Shown here in pieces: positions 12,928 to 22,492 of a stretch of 64,000 nt of DNA (its first letter is position 1; the number at the start of each line of letters is the position of its first letter). A program made the translations under genes and the position numbers. Source of the stretch: Rhizobium sp. 32-5/1 (GTDB taxonomy: Bacteria; Pseudomonadota; Alphaproteobacteria; Rhizobiales; Rhizobiaceae); assembly GCF_029537235.1 (NCBI RefSeq), contig NZ_CP120639.1:868001-932000 (forward strand), read 5' to 3'. A model generated the notes under the pieces. The model had not been told where the DNA came from and did not search any database. It saw only the letters and a list, made by a program, of their open reading frames with translations.

Positions 12928-13179
12928 TTAGTGGGACGCTCCCGAGATGAAGCTCGGCGCGTGATCCTCATGATCGGCGCCTTCTATATCGCCGACCCCG
13001 CATTTACTGATCTCCTCGACCAGCGAGCCCAAAGCCAGATCGAGGCAGTAGGTCGAGAACTCAAGCTTGAGATCCTTGGCGCTGTTACGCGCATAGGTGA
13101 CGAGACGTGCGAGCGAGACCAGCTCTCGCGTGCGATCGTCGATTTCGTCAGCGGTTTGTTCAAGAGTATCGAATACCAT
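12928..13179 (-). CDS. Small helical protein of unknown function
   Basis: 83 aa, acidic, starting MVFDTLEQTADEID, with GAAGGACTGATC in front of the ATG as a good ribosome binding site. It has two amphipathic helices (TRELVSLARLVTYARNS and YCLDLALGSLVEEISK) and a polar tail. No family was recognised. It is the most upstream gene in the co-oriented minus-strand block leading to the lipoprotein and murein hydrolase, so it could be a regulator or adaptor. Between 12692 and 12919 there is a further minus-strand open stretch for which I found no support. Confidence 0.45.
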   Translation of the reverse strand: MVFDTLEQTADEIDDRTRELVSLARLVTYARNSAKDLKLEFSTYCLDLALGSLVEEISKCGVGDIEGADHEDHAPSFISGASH

Positions 13180-13306
13180 GATCAGTCCTTCATTCCTTGG
13201 CAAAGTGCCTGTAGTGAAGGATAATTTAGAAGTTCGGGAATTGCGCGTGACACAGGCGTGACACAGCCTCTAGTGCGGTACTGGAACTGTTCACAACCAC
13301 GAACCG

Positions 13307-14011
13307 CTAGAGAATGTTTCGCCATTGCGCGGTCGAGGCAAACTCCCAATCCAGCGGCGCCGGATGCCGTGCGTTTTCAACGGCTGCGATCGTGTCGAGC
13401 AGCTGCAGTGCGTCAAGCCGCTTCTGGTTGACAGCATTGACCCGCAACAGTTTCTCCAGGCGTGTTCGCGACGCGTGTTCCGGCAGGTTGGCATTGGTGA
13501 CGATGGTCCGGTAGGTCCGGTCCTTGAAGAACAGTCTTTCGGCACTCGCCCTCAGGCTCGCATACTCGGTGTCTTCAAGTTCACACCGCGGTAACAAGTG
13601 ATCAAGGGTAGCAAGGACGTTGACCAGGGGTTCCGACAGCGACAGGTAGCTCATTTCCGGCGGCCCGTGGATCTGGGCGACATCGGCATCGTCGATCAGA
13701 TGGCCGCTGGCATATTGCTCATAGATTTTGCCGACGCCGATCATTCCAAAGGCAGCACATTCCGCAGCCCTCAGAGCTCCCATACTGCTGGCGCCATAGA
13801 CGCGAACGCCGTTCGAGAGGGCAAAGAGGATTTCCTTGTGCCAGACCGGAGCGACATCCTCAAAACAACCATCGATCAAGCCAATGACTGTTGCACCGTC
13901 ATTGACCGCAACGAGGATATCCCGGTGCTTGGCCGGACCGCGGATTTCGATGCCATCAGGAACCAGGCTTGTTGCATCGGGAAGTGTCGGTCCGACAAAG
14001 ACAATCTTCAT
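13307..14011 (-). CDS. tfuA-like: TfuA-like protein, YcaO partner
   Basis: 234 aa with the TfuA-like core: MKIVFVGPTLPD, then GLIDGCFEDVAPVWHKEILFAL (in parts), GASSMGALRAAE and the GMIGVG motif. TfuA proteins work with YcaO enzymes; in archaeal McrA and in thioamitide or trifolitoxin-type systems the pair is linked to peptide backbone thioamidation, with TfuA thought to deliver sulfur. The ATG overlaps the YcaO stop (CTATGA), so the two are co-translated. It is full length compared with the family (~220-250 aa). A specific substrate is not shown by the sequence; the adjacent 72-aa protein is the obvious candidate. Confidence 0.88.
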   Translation of the reverse strand: MKIVFVGPTLPDATSLVPDGIEIRGPAKHRDILVAVNDGATVIGLIDGCFEDVAPVWHKEILFALSNGVRVYGASSMGALRAAECAAFGMIGVGKIYEQYASGHLIDDADVAQIHGPPEMSYLSLSEPLVNVLATLDHLLPRCELEDTEYASLRASAERLFFKDRTYRTIVTNANLPEHASRTRLEKLLRVNAVNQKRLDALQLLDTIAAVENARHPAPLDWEFASTAQWRNIL

Positions 14012-15249
14012 AGCGAGAACAGTGCCTTCGAAATGGCCCTTGGCCCAAACCGTCGCTTTCGTGCCCCTGGCGGGTTTTCAAGGTCCGGAACCAGGACTTT
14101 GGCGACCGAGAACGGGAAGTCCGGCGGTGTCAATGGCACCATGACCACCGAGCCAATAGATCTGCTTCGAAGATGCCTGAGGATACTGTCGAACATTACG
14201 TCCAACTGGACAGAGCCGGTTGTCTTCTGGAGAGGCATTGCCTTTGGGTGCGCAGCGAAATAGCTCAAAATCTCCAAGGGTAGGGGCCGTTTGAATATCT
14301 CCGGATAGATGTCGTCCCGCGCGCCGCTGATATAGGTCAGCCGTGACTGGATCGCCTCCGTGATCGCCCGGATAGCGGCCCGCACAGGATCGGGATGTGC
14401 CCCGCTTCCCTTGGTCACGTCGATAAAGCGAGGATGGCTTTTTGTCGCGATCGCGGTCGGCGCCAAAAACGCGGCGAAACACGCGATGCCGATATCGCTG
14501 GTAATGTCGAACAGTCGAAGCACCAGAGCCGCGCCATCGATCCTGCCGACAAGGCCATCAATAACAGGATCCTGAAAGCCGAAGGGGTCACAGCAGGTCT
14601 TAAGACGATGTTCTGCGTCCGCAATGTTCCACAGGGTTTCCGCATCCCGTTCGATGCGTTCCAGCACCCCATGGAAGCTTGCCTCCTGGAGCGTATTCCC
14701 GGATGCCAGGCCATCGGACGACTGCCAGAACCGAACGACCTCCGGGGTGCGGTCGAGAACAATAGCCTCACGGGGAACCCAGGTGTTGGATTTGGACAGA
14801 ACGTCTGTCCCTCGAACCCACTCGATTGTCTCTTCGTCTGTTATGTCCATCTGCCCCTGGGCGATCAGGCCATCGAGACTGTTGACCGCTTGCCGCTCTG
14901 CCCGGAGGCTTGCCCGTGTTGCAGCGATGGTGTCGATCGATGGATTGCCGGCGATGGCGCGCTCAAGCGCCTCCATCGTTGCAGAAACCCTGGCATCAGC
15001 ATCGGTGATGCCCTTCCCATGATGGATGACGATGGAGCGAGCATTCGGAGAGACCGCGCTCCAGACCGGAACCCCGATCGTGTCGAGATCCGTCAGCCGG
15101 GAGACACGCGTGATCCCATAACTTGGCAGGAAAGGTGTGATGCGACTGAGGGTCTCGTCCGCCGAACAGATGCGGTCCGAGTAAATGGGGGAGGGGGCGG
15201 TGGCCTCAGGAGGTTCCGGCATAGGTATTTGATCGTTCAGCAATACCAT
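14008..15249 (-). CDS. ycaO-like: YcaO-domain cyclodehydratase/thioamidase
   Basis: 413 aa and intact. It shows YcaO features: a SVIIHHGKG-like motif (SIVIHHGKGITDADARVSA, read in parts), ATMEALERA (the E-rich ATP/Mg-binding helix), HGVLERIERDA and AAIRAITEAIQSRLTYISGARDD (in parts). YcaO enzymes phosphorylate a peptide amide using ATP and make azolines, amidines or thioamides. Pairing with TfuA favours thioamidation. It lacks the C-terminal PxPxP-type tail of classical azole-forming YcaO proteins, ending instead in RFGPRAISKALFSL. It lies 27 nt downstream of the 72-aa gene and overlaps tfuA. It is part of an apparent four-gene operon with the SARP-type regulator. Confidence 0.9.
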   Translation of the reverse strand: MVLLNDQIPMPEPPEATAPSPIYSDRICSADETLSRITPFLPSYGITRVSRLTDLDTIGVPVWSAVSPNARSIVIHHGKGITDADARVSATMEALERAIAGNPSIDTIAATRASLRAERQAVNSLDGLIAQGQMDITDEETIEWVRGTDVLSKSNTWVPREAIVLDRTPEVVRFWQSSDGLASGNTLQEASFHGVLERIERDAETLWNIADAEHRLKTCCDPFGFQDPVIDGLVGRIDGAALVLRLFDITSDIGIACFAAFLAPTAIATKSHPRFIDVTKGSGAHPDPVRAAIRAITEAIQSRLTYISGARDDIYPEIFKRPLPLEILSYFAAHPKAMPLQKTTGSVQLDVMFDSILRHLRSRSIGSVVMVPLTPPDFPFSVAKVLVPDLENPPGARKRRFGPRAISKALFSL

Positions 15250-15276: not shown

Positions 15277-15495
15277 CTATCCGTCGAGATGACCGGAGAA
15301 GGCGTCATCTGCTGATTTCACGGCGACAGAAAAATTCACGCCTTTGATGATCGCGGCTCCGCCGGCGCGCAATTTGCTTGCCGCTTCCAACGGGCTTCCC
15401 GCCGGCGGCTGAAACGGGGTGACCGTGCCCGCATCAAGATCTGCAACCCATAGACCGGCTTCTCCGGGTAGTCCGAGAACGACGACTTTTGCCAT
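15277..15495 (-). CDS. 72-aa protein, candidate RiPP precursor of the YcaO-TfuA locus
   Basis: A 72-residue acidic protein beginning MAKVVVLGLPGEAGLW and ending DDAFSGHLDG. AGAAGGA lies 8 nt before the ATG, so it is well set for translation. It contains no cysteine and only scattered Ser/Thr, but it is Gly/Ala-rich with several GG and DG pairs, which would fit backbone thioamidation better than azole formation. It lies 32 nt after the SARP-type regulator and 27 nt before ycaO on the same strand, the usual place for a precursor peptide. I recognise no known precursor family, so substrate status is inference. It could instead be a small partner protein. Confidence 0.6.
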   Translation of the reverse strand: MAKVVVLGLPGEAGLWVADLDAGTVTPFQPPAGSPLEAASKLRAGGAAIIKGVNFSVAVKSADDAFSGHLDG

Positions 15496-15527
15496 GTTTT
15501 AAATCCTTCTCTGTTGGAAAGCGTGTT

Positions 15528-17483
15528 TTAGAAACCTGCTTTTCGCAGGCCATCACGGTAGTGATCTCTCTGCCATTGCTCCTTCAGGGGAACGACAGCC
15601 AGCCAGGTATCAACATCGAAGTCGGGATTGGTCTCGCGGGCCTTGCGCACGAAGCTCTTTGCCCGCTTCTGATTGCCAAGCATGGCCCAGCTTGCGGCCG
15701 AAAGGCGATTTGCAAGCCCGCTATCGGCCATGCCCTCAATGTAGGACAAGGCTTGCTCGTATTCTCCCAGGCAGTAACTCGCTCCGGCTGCCGTCCAGAG
15801 GTAGACATCGGGGCTGAGCGGGTTGAGGTCGATGGCCTTTTCGATTTTCTCAAGCGCTCGGCCGGGCTTGGACGCATGAACGAGGGTATCGGCATAATCT
15901 GCGGCAACGTCGGCGTAATGCGGGCTTAGCGTCTCGGCCAGTTCCAATGCCTCGACGCTTTCATCGATGCCACCGAGAAGTAGTTTTGCAACACCGAGTT
16001 CTCTGTAGCCGCCGACCATGTCCTGGCCGGCCGCTATCGCCTGGTTGGCATGCTTTTCAGCTTCTTTCAGAAGCTGGGTGTCGCCCCGCGCTGTAATCAG
16101 CCATTCGCGGGAAAAGGTTCGCGCAATGCCACTTAACGCCGGTGAGAAATAGGGACTGTCGTGTAGCGCTGCCCGGAATTCCTTGCGGGCACGGCGGATG
16201 TCGGGAAGACCGAGGTTCTTCAGGTGCCGCTGTCCCAGCAGATAGTGGTGGTAGGCCGTCGGGCTGCGCTCGAAATACTCCCGCGCCAGCTCGTTGCGCT
16301 CGACCTGGCCCGTGATCGCCATGGAAATCCGGCGAGCAATCTGCCGGCGCTGGGCAGCCAGATTGTCTTTCTCCATGTCATAACGGTCGGCCCAGATGAC
16401 CTCGTCGTTTGCAAAATAGATCAATTGCACGAACAGGCTGCGTTGGGCGCCGTGGCCGGACAGTTTCGTGTCCAACACGTAGGAAATGCAATGTTGTGCG
16501 ATCGTGTCGGCTTTGTCGGAATGCCGGCCGATTTGAGCTGCCGTATAGGGGGCGACCACGGAAACGGATGTCAGGGAACAGAGCGCAATGGTGACGTCTT
16601 CTATGAGTGCATCGGCGAAAGGCAAAAAGGGTTGACTGCCGGGAACACTCTCCACAGGCGGCAGCAGCACCAGCCTCGGGATGGGGCGCTTGAGACCACT
16701 GTCCGCCTTGGCGACAGATCGGTCTCCGCTGTCCTGCTGTGAAGCGGACACGCTACCGCGCTGCTTCTCGAAGACCTTTCTGACAACGTTCAACGCATGA
16801 ATGTCGGGGCCAAGTGTCAAGTCGCCCCATAACTTCTGTTTCTGGCCATCGAAAATGTTGCGGGCGGCCTGCACTTTTCCCTCTGTGGAATAGGTCTCCG
16901 CAAGCACAGAGACGATCACCTCGTCATCCGGGTCGTGCTGGAAGATCCGCAGGGCCGCATCCTTGACGAGCGCGATGTCTGAGGCGGATTTCGCGACCGG
17001 AATCGCCGTCATCAAAGTTTCGCGCAGTCGGGTCAGGTGCTGCTGCTGCTGCTGCTTGACCCATGATGAGAGGCCATCCCCTGTGCTCTCGATGCTTTCG
17101 AGGAACAGACGGCCGAACAACCCGACCAGCGCGCGCAGATCGCTGAGTGCATCCGAAGAAGGGGGCGTCTGCAGGCCAGCGGCGTCACATTCTAACGTCC
17201 TGTCATCGAGCTTGATATCGGACGCCGCGATCTTGATGAAACAATGACCCAGCTCCCGTTGTCGGGCCTCTATTCGGGACAGTGTCTTGCGCAGATTGGT
17301 ATAGGCCTGCGCAGGTTCGACCTTGTCCCACAACAGCCTCGACACAGCCGACCGCGATTGCGCACGCTTTGGATGAGAAAACAGGTAGGCAAGGATGAGC
17401 AAGCCCTTTTCGGGAAAGGACACAGCGTTCCCCGACGGATCCAAAAGCCGCACGTCCCCCAATGTCAGCAGCCTGAACGCCAT
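15528..17483 (-). CDS. SARP/BTAD-type transcriptional regulator with TolB-like and TPR domains
   Basis: 651 aa, intact. Residues 1-95 form an OmpR-type winged helix of the SARP kind (FRLLTLGDVRLLDPSGN, AVSRLLWDKVEPAQAYTNLRKTLSR in parts). Residues ~100-250 are BTAD-like, with a QQQQQ tract. Residues ~270-400 are a TolB-like/adenylate-cyclase-associated sensor segment (PFADALIEDVTIALCSLTSVSVVAPYTA in parts). Tetratricopeptide repeats follow to the end (AIAAGQDMVGGYRELGVAKL, LNPLSPDVYLWTAAGASYC). This layout is typical of cytosolic regulators for nearby biosynthetic genes. The gene sits immediately upstream of the 72-aa protein, ycaO and tfuA and likely activates them. Confidence 0.8.
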   Translation of the reverse strand: MAFRLLTLGDVRLLDPSGNAVSFPEKGLLILAYLFSHPKRAQSRSAVSRLLWDKVEPAQAYTNLRKTLSRIEARQRELGHCFIKIAASDIKLDDRTLECDAAGLQTPPSSDALSDLRALVGLFGRLFLESIESTGDGLSSWVKQQQQQHLTRLRETLMTAIPVAKSASDIALVKDAALRIFQHDPDDEVIVSVLAETYSTEGKVQAARNIFDGQKQKLWGDLTLGPDIHALNVVRKVFEKQRGSVSASQQDSGDRSVAKADSGLKRPIPRLVLLPPVESVPGSQPFLPFADALIEDVTIALCSLTSVSVVAPYTAAQIGRHSDKADTIAQHCISYVLDTKLSGHGAQRSLFVQLIYFANDEVIWADRYDMEKDNLAAQRRQIARRISMAITGQVERNELAREYFERSPTAYHHYLLGQRHLKNLGLPDIRRARKEFRAALHDSPYFSPALSGIARTFSREWLITARGDTQLLKEAEKHANQAIAAGQDMVGGYRELGVAKLLLGGIDESVEALELAETLSPHYADVAADYADTLVHASKPGRALEKIEKAIDLNPLSPDVYLWTAAGASYCLGEYEQALSYIEGMADSGLANRLSAASWAMLGNQKRAKSFVRKARETNPDFDVDTWLAVVPLKEQWQRDHYRDGLRKAGF

Positions 17484-17534: not shown

Positions 17535-17996
17535 CTAGCTGTTCAATGTGGCTTCCGTGGCTGAGCGACCTTCATTGGCCATCAATACAGGCTCATCCCT
17601 CTGCGCCATCGCCTTCACCAGCGCCACAATCTTTTGGCGGATCTTGGGATCGGCAATGTTCAAGAAGGCCTGGTTAAGGGCCATGCCCTCGCGCGACTGC
17701 AGGAATTGAGAGACGTCATTCAATCCCTGGAAGTTTGCAAGGCCGCTGGTGTTGATCGGTTCGTCGCTTTCCTGGTGAAAGAAGAAGCTAGGCGTTACGC
17801 CCATGACTGTGGCAATCTTCTGCAGGCGGCTGGCACCGACGCGGTTCGTGCCTTTCTCGTATTTCTGCACCTGCTGGAACGTGATGCCAAGCTCGTCACC
17901 CAACCTCGTCTGGCTCATCTTCAACATCATGCGGCGCATTCGGATACGCCCGCCGACATAGACATCGATCGCATCAGGGATTTTCTTCGGGAACAT
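17535..17996 (-). CDS. XRE-family transcriptional regulator
   Basis: 153 aa. The helix-turn-helix is at residues ~15-70 (RMRRMMLKMSQTRLGDEL, TFQQVQKYEKGTNRVGASRL) and there is a helical C-terminal domain. This is the architecture of rhizobial SinR/CI-like regulators with a FFFHQ linker. The start at 17996 is chosen because GGAG precedes it by about 8 nt and the upstream in-frame extension has no protein-like character. It lies 51 nt upstream of the SARP-type gene on the same strand and may control the YcaO-TfuA operon. Confidence 0.85.
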   Translation of the reverse strand: MFPKKIPDAIDVYVGGRIRMRRMMLKMSQTRLGDELGITFQQVQKYEKGTNRVGASRLQKIATVMGVTPSFFFHQESDEPINTSGLANFQGLNDVSQFLQSREGMALNQAFLNIADPKIRQKIVALVKAMAQRDEPVLMANEGRSATEATLNS

Positions 17997-18353
17997 GGAT
18001 GGACTCCTAACTAGGCCGGGTTTCATGCCCCCTGGAATGGCGCTGCGGTAGCAGGTCGGGTGACACGCATTCAATTTTCGCAGCTTGTATTGAAATTAAC
18101 AAAAATTCAACCTTTAGTATGGGCAGGTTTCGGAATTCAACATATCTCTTCTGTAGGCCACGCAGAGCCTCGGGCGCTCTTGTGCCGCCTTTCGACGAGT
18201 ATGAATTGTAAGAGGCTCTCGAGTTGCATGATCGCATATGCGCAAAAGCAACCTCGAATGGTTGGGTGACGTGTGCGGACCCTGTACAAGTGGCTGCATC
18301 AGCCAAATGAAGCCCGTTTATGGAAGCGATGATGCTTTTGGAGGTGCCAATCG

Positions 18354-18877: not shown

Positions 18878-21713
18878 TTAGAGATGAGCAGGTCGGTCGA
18901 CACCTTCGAAACTGTACCGACGCGCGAGCTCGGCATAGTATTTCAGATCGGACCCGACGGTATCTGGAGACTTATCCTGTTCGAGAACTGCAATGACCGC
19001 CCTCACCGCCGAAGGTACGACCTTGCCGGTTTCCTCGATTTCGCGATACGCTTGGTCGAGGGGTTCGCCGTTATCGAATGCCGAAACGAGGCGATCCCAG
19101 ACATCGCCATGGCCAGGTGAACCCGTCGTGATGGCGAGTTGCGCCATGAGCCCGCGATAGCCACCTTCTTCGAGGCGCCTTGCCTCGTCGCTCCGGAAAC
19201 TGGCTTTCACAACTCGATAAACATTGACGAAGCGGAGGGCGCGGCGTGGGGTATGCCCGGCCCAAGGCGCGATCTTGCGTGCGAACGCTATCTCTTCATC
19301 GGAGAGTGTCAGCGCTTCCACGTCCGGCTGAACGACTTCCAATGTCCCACTAACTTCGAAACTCGGCGCAGTTAATGTACCGTTGAGACTGATGGTCGAG
19401 CCGGTGGTGGGCAATCGATCCCCGTTGACCACCGAGGAGCCTCCTCCATGATTGGCGCGTTTCGCGTTTCACCGAGATCAATGGCCGCAGTGGGGGCGGG
19501 GGTTTTCCTCACCGATTTGCTAATAAGTGACGCCGCCAGTTCACTGCTTGCCTCCGGTGTCATCGGACGGACCCAGTATGGAACCTGAAATAGCTTCTCA
19601 AGATAATCAGATGGCGTGGCACTTCCAGTGCCTGCGCCTGCGGTGATGAGCTCCTTATACTGGTCTTCGAGCGACCTGCTTACCCAGCGCGTATCGACAG
19701 CGACCACGACCACGAACAATGGAAATGAAAGCAGCAAGTGAACGGCCTGCAGCACCTGGACCACTTTGTCGGGAGGGCAGCGATCCAGATCATCCACGTA
19801 GAGCACGATGCGATTGAAGGTCTCGCTGTTTTTGACAACGGGTCGCTCTGTGGTGCGCACAAGCTCGGCCTTTTCCTCCGCATGCAGCAGCTCATTTGTA
19901 GAGGATATCTCGATGAGCCGTTTAACACGATCTGTGTAGTCCTGGTCGTTCTTCGAAAGATCACTCTGCGGACTATCACCTGCCTCGGCCATCATCGCGG
20001 AAAGCTGAGTGAAGTCTTTGCGAATGCTTGCGATCAGACCGAGATGCTTTGAATAGTGATCGTTGGTCGCACGCTCCCGCACAAACCTCAGAAGCCTATC
20101 TCTGCCCGTCTCTTGCTGGTATTCTTTAGTTGTCTGCGCCAATTTTTCGCTGCTGGCCTGGAACGCGGATCGTGCCTCGGATGCTTCCGACGTCGATTTC
20201 GCGAGTTTTTCTTGCGCCTTTTTCAATCCATTCTCGGGTTTCTGCAACTCGGCGCTGATTGCCGTTTCAAGCGTTACGTCGAACTCGTCAAGTTTGGCCA
20301 CACCAGAGCGAACCTCTTTGAGAAGCCATTTCGCCTTTGCCGCCAACAAAGTAGCAACGCCGCCTGCTCCGGAGATAAGATTGAGAAACGAGCCTCCAGA
20401 GGCACCCAACTGAGCGCTTATCCATGTGACACCAAGGGGCACAAGCAAGACGATGGCCAGGATCATGATAAGGCTCGGCCATCGCAACAACCGACCAAGG
20501 AAGCCAGCCAGAATGACCGTGCCGCGTTTTGTCTCGCTATGAACGTCCCGCAGAGTTTCGCTCAACAATCTAGAATCGTTAACGAGATCGTCCAGCCCGG
20601 CCTTTTCTGCCGCGTCTTTGAAATCCCTATTGTCTATCTCTTTCTTGAAAGTTTCCTCCACCGCCTTCCAGAAAATCCTTGGGGTCGGCTTGAAGTTCTG
20701 CTTGATAACAGCAAGCTCGCTCTCCGCGGCTGATAGGCGAGCAGCGGCCTCCTTCTGATGTTGACGCTGCGTAACAAGACGCTCCGCTGCTTCAAGGGTC
20801 AACTCGCGCGCCGTTGTTAATTTGTCGAGGATCGTGTTGTCGGGCGCGCCCTCATTTCTTTGCCGCGACCATCGATCGAGCTCCGTGAAAATATTGTCGA
20901 CCAGGCTCGCCCAGAGATTCATCTCCACGTAGTGCCAAGCATTGAAGCGGATCTGCACGATTCCGGGTAAAAAGTGTCGGAAGCCTTTGAGTGCGGGTCT
21001 TCCGCCAGCTTAGAAAGATAGGCGACGTGCTCATTTATCAGTCGCATGAAATATGATTTGCCCGAGCCCCATTCACCGAAAATGCCGAACGCTAGGGGAG
21101 TTGTAACGTTTCGGGCTGCGGCAACGCGCGCAAAAGCGTGAGCCTCGTCGGAGACGCCGAGTTTATCGATGAGATCGGCTCTATCAGGAGAATCGCTACC
21201 GAGATCCGCATATGCCTGGGTTCTTCGCCGTAGGTCCGGACTACTATTCGGACCAGAGCCGACAGAAGTATCAGTGTCCCCTGATCCTAGGACGGGATTG
21301 TCCTCGACAGAAACGTTGAGTGCGTTCGCCCAGGACTGCCATTCGCCTCCGCCTTCCTTGATCGTCAACACGACTTGCCGCGGTATTTCTGCAGCTGGAA
21401 GCTCGGAGATCTGCAGATGATCAGCTGAGCCGACCTCGCGGAGAAGCGCCACGACAAGCGCATCGGCTCCGAGAACGTGCCCTCGGGCAAACCATCCATC
21501 ACCGTTCGCGACAGCTTTCGTCAACAAACCTAAGGCTTGCGGTGTTGCCGTGGGCACTAACCTAGATTGTAACCTCCCGTCCGCGGTCAATCTGTTCGAT
21601 GGCTCAATGGCTTGAAAACGAGACTCGCTAACGAGCTGCGCAATGCTCACTAAGCCCGCTTCCTCACCTTTCAGCGTGGCCCCAACCGAGCGCCCCACGA
21701 TAGCGGCCGACAT
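18878..21713 (-). CDS. KAP-family P-loop NTPase with N-terminal repeat domain (two frameshifts)
   Basis: About 945 aa. The N-terminal ~200 residues form a helical domain (LVSESRFQAIEPSNRL, HVLGADALVVALLREVG) that resembles Clp-N-type repeats. The KAP ATPase follows: Walker A is GIFGEWGSGKS, then FNAWHYVEMNLWASLVD, two transmembrane helices inserted between Walker A and Walker B (LIMILAIVLLVPLGVTW and the segment after it), a long coiled coil, and Walker B RIVLYVDDLDRCPPDK. The C-terminal lid reads RRALRFVNVYRVVKASF. One missing base at ~20963 (restoring FYPGIVQIRFNAWHY) and one at ~19446 (restoring IMGGGSSVVNGD) rejoin the three frames. KAP ATPases are membrane-associated, intracellular, and frequent in phage-defence islands. 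The ATG at 21713 follows the upstream gene by 17 nt. Confidence 0.8.
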
Positions 21714-21730
21714 GACGAGCCGCTCGACAT

Positions 21731-22492
21731 TTATTTCCCCTGATCGCCAGAAAGATGATTGAGTTGCGACGCAGTCCGAAGCATTCGGGCGGCAAGTGTT
21801 GTCACGTCTTGAGCACCCACTGACGAGAGGATTGCGTCCATGTCGGCGGTCTCGGCTTCCTGATCCGACGCCGGACGGGACTGTGAAGCATGAAGCACAC
21901 GTTCCCAAAGCGACGCAGTCTCACCTAGCCGGGGTGTGACAATGTGTTTGATGAACTGGTTTTTGATATCCTGAAGAACTCCGGTGTCGAGCGTCAAGCC
22001 AAACAGCGCCATAACCTGGCCGGCGAGAAAGCCGGTTTGGAGCATTGCGCCGACGAGATGCCGGGCTTCGAACTCCGGTCGGCCGGTCGTCTCAACGGCC
22101 ATAGCTTGAGCCACCGGAATTAACATCCGAACGTTGTCTGTGAGATCCACAGAATAACCGTCAGCCAATCGGGCAAATACGTTCTGCGGCCCCAACTGAA
22201 GATGAGACATTACCCTTTGAATGTGATCTGGGCCGACCCTAACCTTCAACCACTCAGCCAACCACGCAGCACTTCTTTCTTCAGGCGCACCGTTATTGTC
22301 AGACAGCCCTGAGGCAACGATACCTAGAGTCAAAGATCGTCCTCGCAAGAGAAGGGTCCGATTTTCGGCATCGACGTCAAGGAAGTGTACTGCCTGATCT
22401 AAGACTGGCATTAGCGGTGACAAGCTGCCAGGTGACGTCGAAAACAGCTCGGCGACTCTTTTCGTTAAGCTGTCCCAATCCGGCACCTGCAT
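21731..22492 (-). CDS. Partner protein of the KAP ATPase, Clp-N-like repeats
   Basis: About 253 aa if started at the ATG at 22492, which has GAGGAA just upstream; a GTG at 22534 would add 14 residues. It is helical and contains a Clp-N-repeat-like segment (RPEFEARHLVGAML, then FLAGQVMALFGLTLD), similar in style to the N-terminal region of the KAP protein next to it. No catalytic motif was seen. It ends 17 nt before the KAP start, so the two form an operon. A role as adaptor or sensor for the ATPase is inferred from context. Confidence 0.55.
   Translation of the reverse strand: MQVPDWDSLTKRVAELFSTSPGSLSPLMPVLDQAVHFLDVDAENRTLLLRGRSLTLGIVASGLSDNNGAPEERSAAWLAEWLKVRVGPDHIQRVMSHLQLGPQNVFARLADGYSVDLTDNVRMLIPVAQAMAVETTGRPEFEARHLVGAMLQTGFLAGQVMALFGLTLDTGVLQDIKNQFIKHIVTPRLGETASLWERVLHASQSRPASDQEAETADMDAILSSVGAQDVTTLAARMLRTASQLNHLSGDQGK

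Follow-up and report, generated by a model that had tools for sequence, protein, structure and literature searches.

TfuA was first named from a rhizobium, and the original tfuA gene belongs with trifolitoxin in Rhizobium anhuiense T24 (PMC9670871). The closest known analogue of the locus described here appears to be thiovarsolin. In the varA-varY-varT system of Streptomyces varsoviensis, precursor, YcaO and TfuA are enough to make a thioamidated product; precursors of this type range from having no repeat to having up to five, and, as far as the cited account goes, a specific protease is absent from the cluster (PMC6511847). Malit et al. (2021) reported 797 precursor families and, for Rhizobium, more than 500 TfuA-related clusters, the precursors named in that genus being berninamycin-like and Nif11-like (PMC8120280). 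Within the literature examined we found no characterised product of a rhizobial TfuA pair, and a search that mostly lay outside subscription journals returned no paper on the gene family described below.

Here we analysed a stretch of 64,000 nucleotides from Rhizobium sp. 32-5/1 (the window), in which a small gene, P, accompanies adjacent ycaO and tfuA genes, as in TfuA-YcaO RiPP loci. We consider it probable that P encodes a RiPP precursor, that YcaO and TfuA most likely thioamidate its Gly68, and that a TPR protein most likely acts as a regulator sensing P or its core. The operon shares with thiovarsolin a short precursor, YcaO, TfuA and a range of tandem repeats. Thiovarsolin, as described in that account, differs in its APR core and actinobacterial host (PMC6511847), while the P system has a strand/helix leader, a fixed 17-residue spacing, the small protein c4 and a TPR gene that remains next to the precursor gene. 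By gene content the operon is of the same kind as the Rhizobium TfuA clusters of Malit et al.; the account consulted here does not name the P family, its core, its split loci or its coupling to a TPR gene, and P may be among its unnamed precursor families (PMC8120280). The archaeal thioglycine of McrA likewise pairs YcaO-TfuA with a glycine target, as proposed for P, but there the substrate described is a large enzyme rather than a dedicated small precursor (PMC7058361). Finally, RRNPP pairs, as outlined in PMC10075063, resemble the P locus in placing a TPR protein gene beside a small peptide gene. The P system differs from them in its modifying enzymes, its Gram-negative host and its different likely regulator, and appears to differ in that P starts with predicted strands in place of a signal peptide; we do not claim RRNPP membership for the pair.

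The P gene and its operon

P is an open reading frame of 72 residues at exactly the position given in the original prediction, to which we add its minus-strand orientation (Table 1). The stretches VVVLGLPG and VADLDAGTV highlighted there are both present, and Cys is absent. A ribosome-binding site, GAGAAGGAT, can be read from the sequence. Since dN/dS is 0.08-0.25 in 15 pairs drawn from six close relatives, we regard P as a constrained coding gene. It occurs once in the window's own genome (87% complete), as does TfuA among the matches listed.

Table 1. Position of the P operon and its features within the window.
Feature	Position	Strand	Remarks
c4 small protein, start codon uncertain	12928..13203	-	travels with YcaO
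TfuA partner (234 aa)	13307..14011	-	PF07812 E 4.4e-43; 4-base overlap with YcaO
YcaO enzyme (413 aa)	14008..15249	-	PF02624 E 2.9e-60
P (72-aa candidate precursor ORF)	15277..15495	-	ATG start
Core heptapeptide (putative), residues 65-71 (AFSGHLD)	15283..15303	-	period-7 duplication unit in relatives
Gly68, putative modification site	15292..15294	-	121/121 main-family sequences
Conserved segment, residues 51-59 (KGVNFSVAV)	15319..15345	-	putative recognition strand, starts 17 before Gly68
Gly-Gly, residues 45-46 of P	15358-15363	-	just past predicted helix
P leader (putative), residues 1-44	15364..15495	-	AlphaFold2: strands 4-8, 15-19, 24-28, helix 35-42
P ribosome-binding site, ATCCTTCTC on + strand	15503-15511		serves minus-strand P
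TPRreg (651 aa), likely regulator	15528..17483	-	AlphaFold2 pLDDT 84; TPR matches
HTH_3 regulator, start codon uncertain	17535..18074	-	PF01381 E 2e-12
KAP-family NTPase matches	19372-21908	-	two overlapping ORFs, as if frameshifted or split

The genes run in one direction in the order HTH gene, TPR protein (TPRreg), P, YcaO, TfuA and c4, with 27 bases between P and ycaO. The HTH_3 regulator accompanies the system, several split loci included. A Pfam search with c4 gave no match; we treat it as a candidate further component of the system. Pfam identified no LAP/TOMM C protein/RRE and no dehydrogenase among the window's flanking genes. Neither a protease nor an exporter was identified near P, where recurrent neighbour clusters were annotated only for the operon genes. 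Searched by itself, P matched nothing in Pfam and nothing meaningful in NCBIfam or the PDB, and the family profile and its members gave no significant match to these databases either. The result on which the original prediction would have fallen, a confident match to some unrelated family of known function, was looked for and not obtained. The LIC10067 lipoprotein model matched P at E 0.0088, with 15.3 bits against a cut-off of 200, and was dismissed as far too low.

Distribution of P and its linkage to YcaO, TfuA and the TPR gene

A search with the single protein matched 35 of 151 genomes at E<=0.01. Within the same bacterial family, 394 genomes were searched and 87 contain matches at this threshold, the window's genome being counted in both sets. 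At E<=1e-6, the level taken to define P-positive genomes, 69 of the 394 carry P. Fourteen marginal matches (E 0.001-0.01) were left out of the P counts; TfuA is near 3 of these and not near the other 11. Judged by organism names, this bacterial family is Rhizobiaceae: a relative is encoded on 100 stretches, and the 80 kept come from genera including Rhizobium, Sinorhizobium/Ensifer, Neorhizobium, Pararhizobium, Shinella and Hoeflea. Matches were obtained in 58 plasmid records. In the 151-genome search one match (G149, E 1e-11) fell in another family of the order, and in a class-wide profile search (A1) the window's genome was the sole one of 385 with P, a negative weakened by one very long alignment row. 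R. johnstonii 3841 carries P, and the type strain of R. anhuiense carries the operon. This type strain has three TfuA genes, and with three candidates the identification of the operon tfuA with the trifolitoxin tfuA was dropped. TfxA, the trifolitoxin precursor, is a different precursor from P. For detailed comparison, 152 loci yielded 157 matches, 122 of them unique, and 121 of these, at E<1e-8, make up the main family; a 59-aa opposite-strand match in L078 was excluded. The counts that follow are of unique precursor sequences, which are still related to one another, and many loci share genomes.

P is tightly linked to the two enzymes. TfuA is present in 69/69 P-positive genomes and in 54 of the 325 others (TfuA matches listed for the 394 genomes), an association whose Fisher value ignores kinship among relatives that are not independent. 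A TfuA gene starts within 4 kb of at least 64 of 76 P copies, and the remaining copies are in TfuA-positive genomes. YcaO lies directly downstream of 98 of the 120 unique P with enough sequence, so that the short precursor sits beside the enzyme pair, and a TPR gene lies directly upstream on the same strand in 119 of the 120, within 1.1 kb of the stop-to-stop frame. Because P is nearly always found beside this same likely regulator gene, we regard it as a candidate new modified-peptide family.

The remaining 22 P have no adjacent YcaO, and all 22 have the TPR gene beside them. In 17 genomes where P lacks adjacent YcaO or TfuA, the missing partner sits elsewhere in the genome. Twenty genomes were looked up for both enzymes (two with complete operons, three without adjacent TfuA, 14 without adjacent YcaO and one with TfuA upstream), and every one contains at least one of each gene. 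The 14 genomes without YcaO beside P have window-like enzymes (42-58% for YcaO) in several arrangements. Five of them encode a complete operon with its own P (L166, L174, L175, L178 and L179), so the five P without adjacent YcaO may be extra copies. Three have HTH-YcaO-TfuA or YcaO-TfuA without P (L162, L164 and L169), and one has the enzymes beside a damaged TPR gene (L180). The other five have separate loci (L171 with L173; L181, L183 and L185; L188); L181, L183 and L185 are HTH-YcaO loci with TfuA near P, and L188 also has TfuA near P. The three genomes without TfuA beside P have an HTH-TfuA locus elsewhere (L161, L189 and L191). c4 is found in 78 of 109 YcaO loci of at least 8 kb, paralogous ones included, against none of 31 without YcaO. 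These split-locus and c4 counts indicate that in an incomplete operon the TPR gene remains the companion of P, and YcaO that of c4. Given the 22 of 120 P with no YcaO alongside, modification is assumed to be able to occur in trans. Among 20 YcaO-less P loci with gene calls, no neighbour cluster besides TPRreg and c0 was present in more than five.

Some individual loci depart from these arrangements. In L154 an MBL hydrolase is a neighbour of the YcaO-less P. In L157 (R. rhizogenes pC5.7c), a record with two P places, one YcaO gene follows a TPR gene and P, and another, about 2 kb away, is accompanied by TfuA. L030/L150 has a five-unit P with YcaO-TfuA and no TPR gene alongside, the sole such case among the 120.

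Leader, core and predicted chemistry

The AlphaFold2 model of P alone, a prediction that had been proposed as a check and was built from 45 sequences, is weak overall (mean pLDDT 70, pTM 0.47), with block pLDDT of 74-86 for residues 1-40 and 53-61 beyond residue 40. It folds residues 1-44 into strands and a helix, with predicted strands at the N-terminus where a secretion signal would stand. Foldseek found nothing significant for this model in the PDB (best E 0.55). The 45-row alignment shows M1, D19 and G68 to be invariant. The C-terminal FSGHLDG residues, whose invariance was to be checked, thus keep only G68 throughout, with Asp or Glu at position 71 in 42 of 45 and His69 in 18 of 45.

Gly46 is present in 115 of 121 sequences and the Gly-Gly pair in just 11. 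To the eye, this pair is unlike the classical double-glycine motif, though it may still be a cut site. Across the family, a small residue followed by Gly is common at positions 45-46, where processing could take place. As region 46-60 is conserved despite low model confidence, the leader may extend further, or cleavage may occur near Gly46; the latter alternative, which the data allow, would place segment 51-59 inside a longer product.

The core glycine, Gly68, occurs in 121 of 121 main-family sequences. In the last core of each main-family precursor, Asp or Glu occupies G+3 in 115 of 121 and His occupies G+1 in 63. Counting back 17 residues from the first core glycine leads to Lys in 110 sequences, Arg in 6 and Asn in 5; indels further upstream shift the position of this residue between 43 and 52. 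Seven precursors contain two to four cores with a period of 7 (L004, with four, L015, L043, L045, L086, L114 and L123), and L030 contains five longer units at a spacing of 25-30. The glycine is kept in 24/24 copies of the eight multi-core precursors, and in L030 the 51-57 segment is repeated with every core, at distances of 17, 17, 17, 17 and 16 residues. Repeats in the tail were detected in 8 of 121 main-family and 3 of 8 divergent proteins, against 0.65 per 129 expected from shuffles, the eight divergent sequences having joined the test after their repeats were seen and the L206 repeat ORF being excluded; leader repeats occur in 2 of 129 against 0.42 expected. The eight cases amount by eye to about four lineages, and the core and spacing patterns were written down after the sequences had been seen.

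A conserved leader joined to a variable or repeated core is the pattern of TfuA-YcaO RiPPs. A conserved leader, tail-only tandem duplication and varying tails are precursor hallmarks, and P therefore looks like a RiPP precursor. Together with the low-confidence tail and tail exchange, they contradict the original description of P as unlike classical RiPP precursors. That description had also noted the absence of a Cys/Ser/Thr-rich core, which holds for Cys, but the tail does have features, with its invariant main-family Gly68 and its tandem repeats in relatives.

The suggested McrA-like modification of a small folded protein fared better: the linkage to YcaO-TfuA, the strands and helix of residues 1-44 and the likely backbone thioamidation (see below) agree with it, even though P is not unlike RiPP precursors. 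In its full form, this reading would have P function as a folded protein that receives its thioamide in the tail and is never cut to a peptide. The modelled leader, the purifying selection on P and the lack of an identified protease or exporter in the limited annotation around it are consistent with such a protein, and YcaO-TfuA acting on McrA (PMC7058361) and YcaO acting on ribosomal protein uL16 (PMC13063428) offer precedents. However, duplication confined to the tail, tails that change behind a related leader and the low-confidence tail all argue for a precursor, and uL16, as described in the latter source, is by contrast highly conserved and recognised by its tertiary structure. We therefore hold the folded-protein interpretation to be improbable.

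Under the RiPP-precursor interpretation, P would be made ribosomally, with residues 1-44 as its leader and residues 65-71 as its core heptapeptide. Segment 51-59 probably serves as a second recognition element, a strand whose first residue is held 17 before the target and which would present Gly68 at a fixed distance. YcaO with TfuA most likely turns the backbone amide of Gly68 into a thioamide, and the core would presumably be released by proteolysis.

The enzymes are consistent with this chemistry. YcaO matches Methanocaldococcus jannaschii MJ1094 (6pe3) at E 1.2e-33 and keeps its VSAxMEAxER, LExIERDA and TExxQSR blocks, which presumably have a role in ATP binding. Because these glutamate/arginine blocks are kept, YcaO is taken to be active. 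TfuA matches 6xp8 at E 1.4e-27. For both enzymes the best NCBIfam models are those for McrA thioamidation, with scores below the equivalog cut-offs (TIGR03266, 194.7 bits against 365; NF033432, 176.8 against 235.2). A YcaO family enzyme might also suggest an azoline/azole precursor modified by cyclodehydration, and Ser immediately precedes the core glycine in 72 of 121 sequences. Azoline LAP/TOMM precursors would have Cys, Ser or Thr in every core, but here 39 of 121 cores have none around the glycine, and Cys occurs in only 1 of 121 proteins. Backbone thioamidation is thus likely rather than cyclisation of Cys, Ser or Thr. Since the best score of YcaO, though below cut-off, is also to a McrA-thioamidation model, cyclodehydration seems very unlikely.

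P could also be thought of as a ThiS-type sulfur carrier feeding YcaO-TfuA, being small, with N-terminal strands and a Gly-containing tail, and having a thioamidation pair as its genomic neighbour; PMC13063428 mentions that TfuA is used together with ThiS-like carriers. P has no C-terminal GG, its tail is duplicated in relatives, and it has neither a significant Pfam match nor a PDB match to the weak model, so we give this role scarcely any credence.

Divergent relatives, parallel operons and the TPR protein

Nine loci (L198-L206) form a divergent clade; eight were among the weakest matches of the search, and the ninth scored E 9.8e-7. Their P proteins match the profile at E 6e-9 to 3e-16 among 747 ORFs and keep the leader, but their tails have no core motif (that of L198 ends FSGNA), so Gly68 is not universal. 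In L201-L206 a second ORF lies between P and YcaO and matches only profile positions 1-39, with E values of 2.6e-4 in L203, 0.022 in L206 and 0.18-0.8 in the others. Because these scores are weak, its kinship with P is on weak footing. The second ORF contains 13- or 19-residue tandem repeats in L201, L202, L204 and, by eye, L206, where it is a possible multi-core precursor; in L203 and L205 it appears by eye to be a single unit.

A paralogous operon (27-32% for the TPR protein, 38-40% for YcaO) was found in 11 loci (L159, L163, L165, L168, L176, L177, L182, L184, L186, L187 and L194), in the order TPRreg2, a peptide of 41-47 aa, YcaO2 and TfuA2, with an HTH gene nearby. The peptide (its length counted from an internal Met in L163 and L165) is unrelated to P, occupies the same slot and ends HALKFR or HALRFR, making it a candidate second precursor family. 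A third, distant YcaO-TfuA pair (27-33% for YcaO) is encoded in L158, L160, L167, L170, L190, L192 and L193, where the end of a long ORF lies just upstream in place of any evident small peptide.

The AlphaFold2 model of TPRreg is confident (pLDDT 84, pTM 0.51). It opens with a winged-helix-like part and continues with helices to about residue 220; an alpha/beta domain spans 270-371, and TPR repeats reach to 650. TPR proteins are its top matches in Foldseek and profile searches. Pfam Trans_reg_C (PF00486) matches at E 0.15 only, and we therefore infer, rather than assign, a role as a DNA-binding regulator. CadC, a periplasmic sensor, was considered and set aside: its matches are weak (Foldseek E 5.6e-6 to 1.5e-5, target TM-score 0.46-0.48, rmsd about 14) and rank below general TPR proteins. 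In public records, relatives of TPRreg are named adenylate cyclase, peptide antibiotic resistance protein or hypothetical. The pairing of a TPR gene with a propeptide gene, as in RRNPP systems, holds in 119 of 120 cases, and the protein, with its TPR fold, may be a receptor. That all 22 YcaO-less precursors adjoin the TPR gene suggests that its protein may sense P. The original idea that P is a binding partner survives in this other form.

It is possible, though we would not put it first, that the main role of P is to bind the TPR protein as a ligand or inhibitor and that modification by YcaO-TfuA tunes binding. The near-constant TPR gene upstream, including at every YcaO-less P, the TPR superhelix of TPRreg and the shared arrangement of the paralogous operon all agree with a ligand. 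Against it, the link is one of adjacency, multi-core expansions are easier to account for if P yields a product, and L150 has P, YcaO and TfuA without TPRreg alongside. A ligand role is in any case compatible with P being a RiPP precursor and does not exclude it. A bolder proposal, which at present we think rather doubtful, is that rhizobia make a thioamidated heptapeptide that is read by the adjacent TPR regulator, and that parallel versions, each pairing a different peptide with a regulator of the same family, coexist within one genome.

As a RiPP precursor, P would represent a defined family whose core and target residue are open to testing in genetically tractable symbionts. The fixed spacing also lends itself to mutation, and what the system produces may be read by its likely regulator. 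If true, a thioamidated heptapeptide paired with a TPR regulator would constitute a Gram-negative peptide-signalling circuit. More speculatively, P-derived peptides could influence how rhizobia compete or communicate around the roots of legumes.
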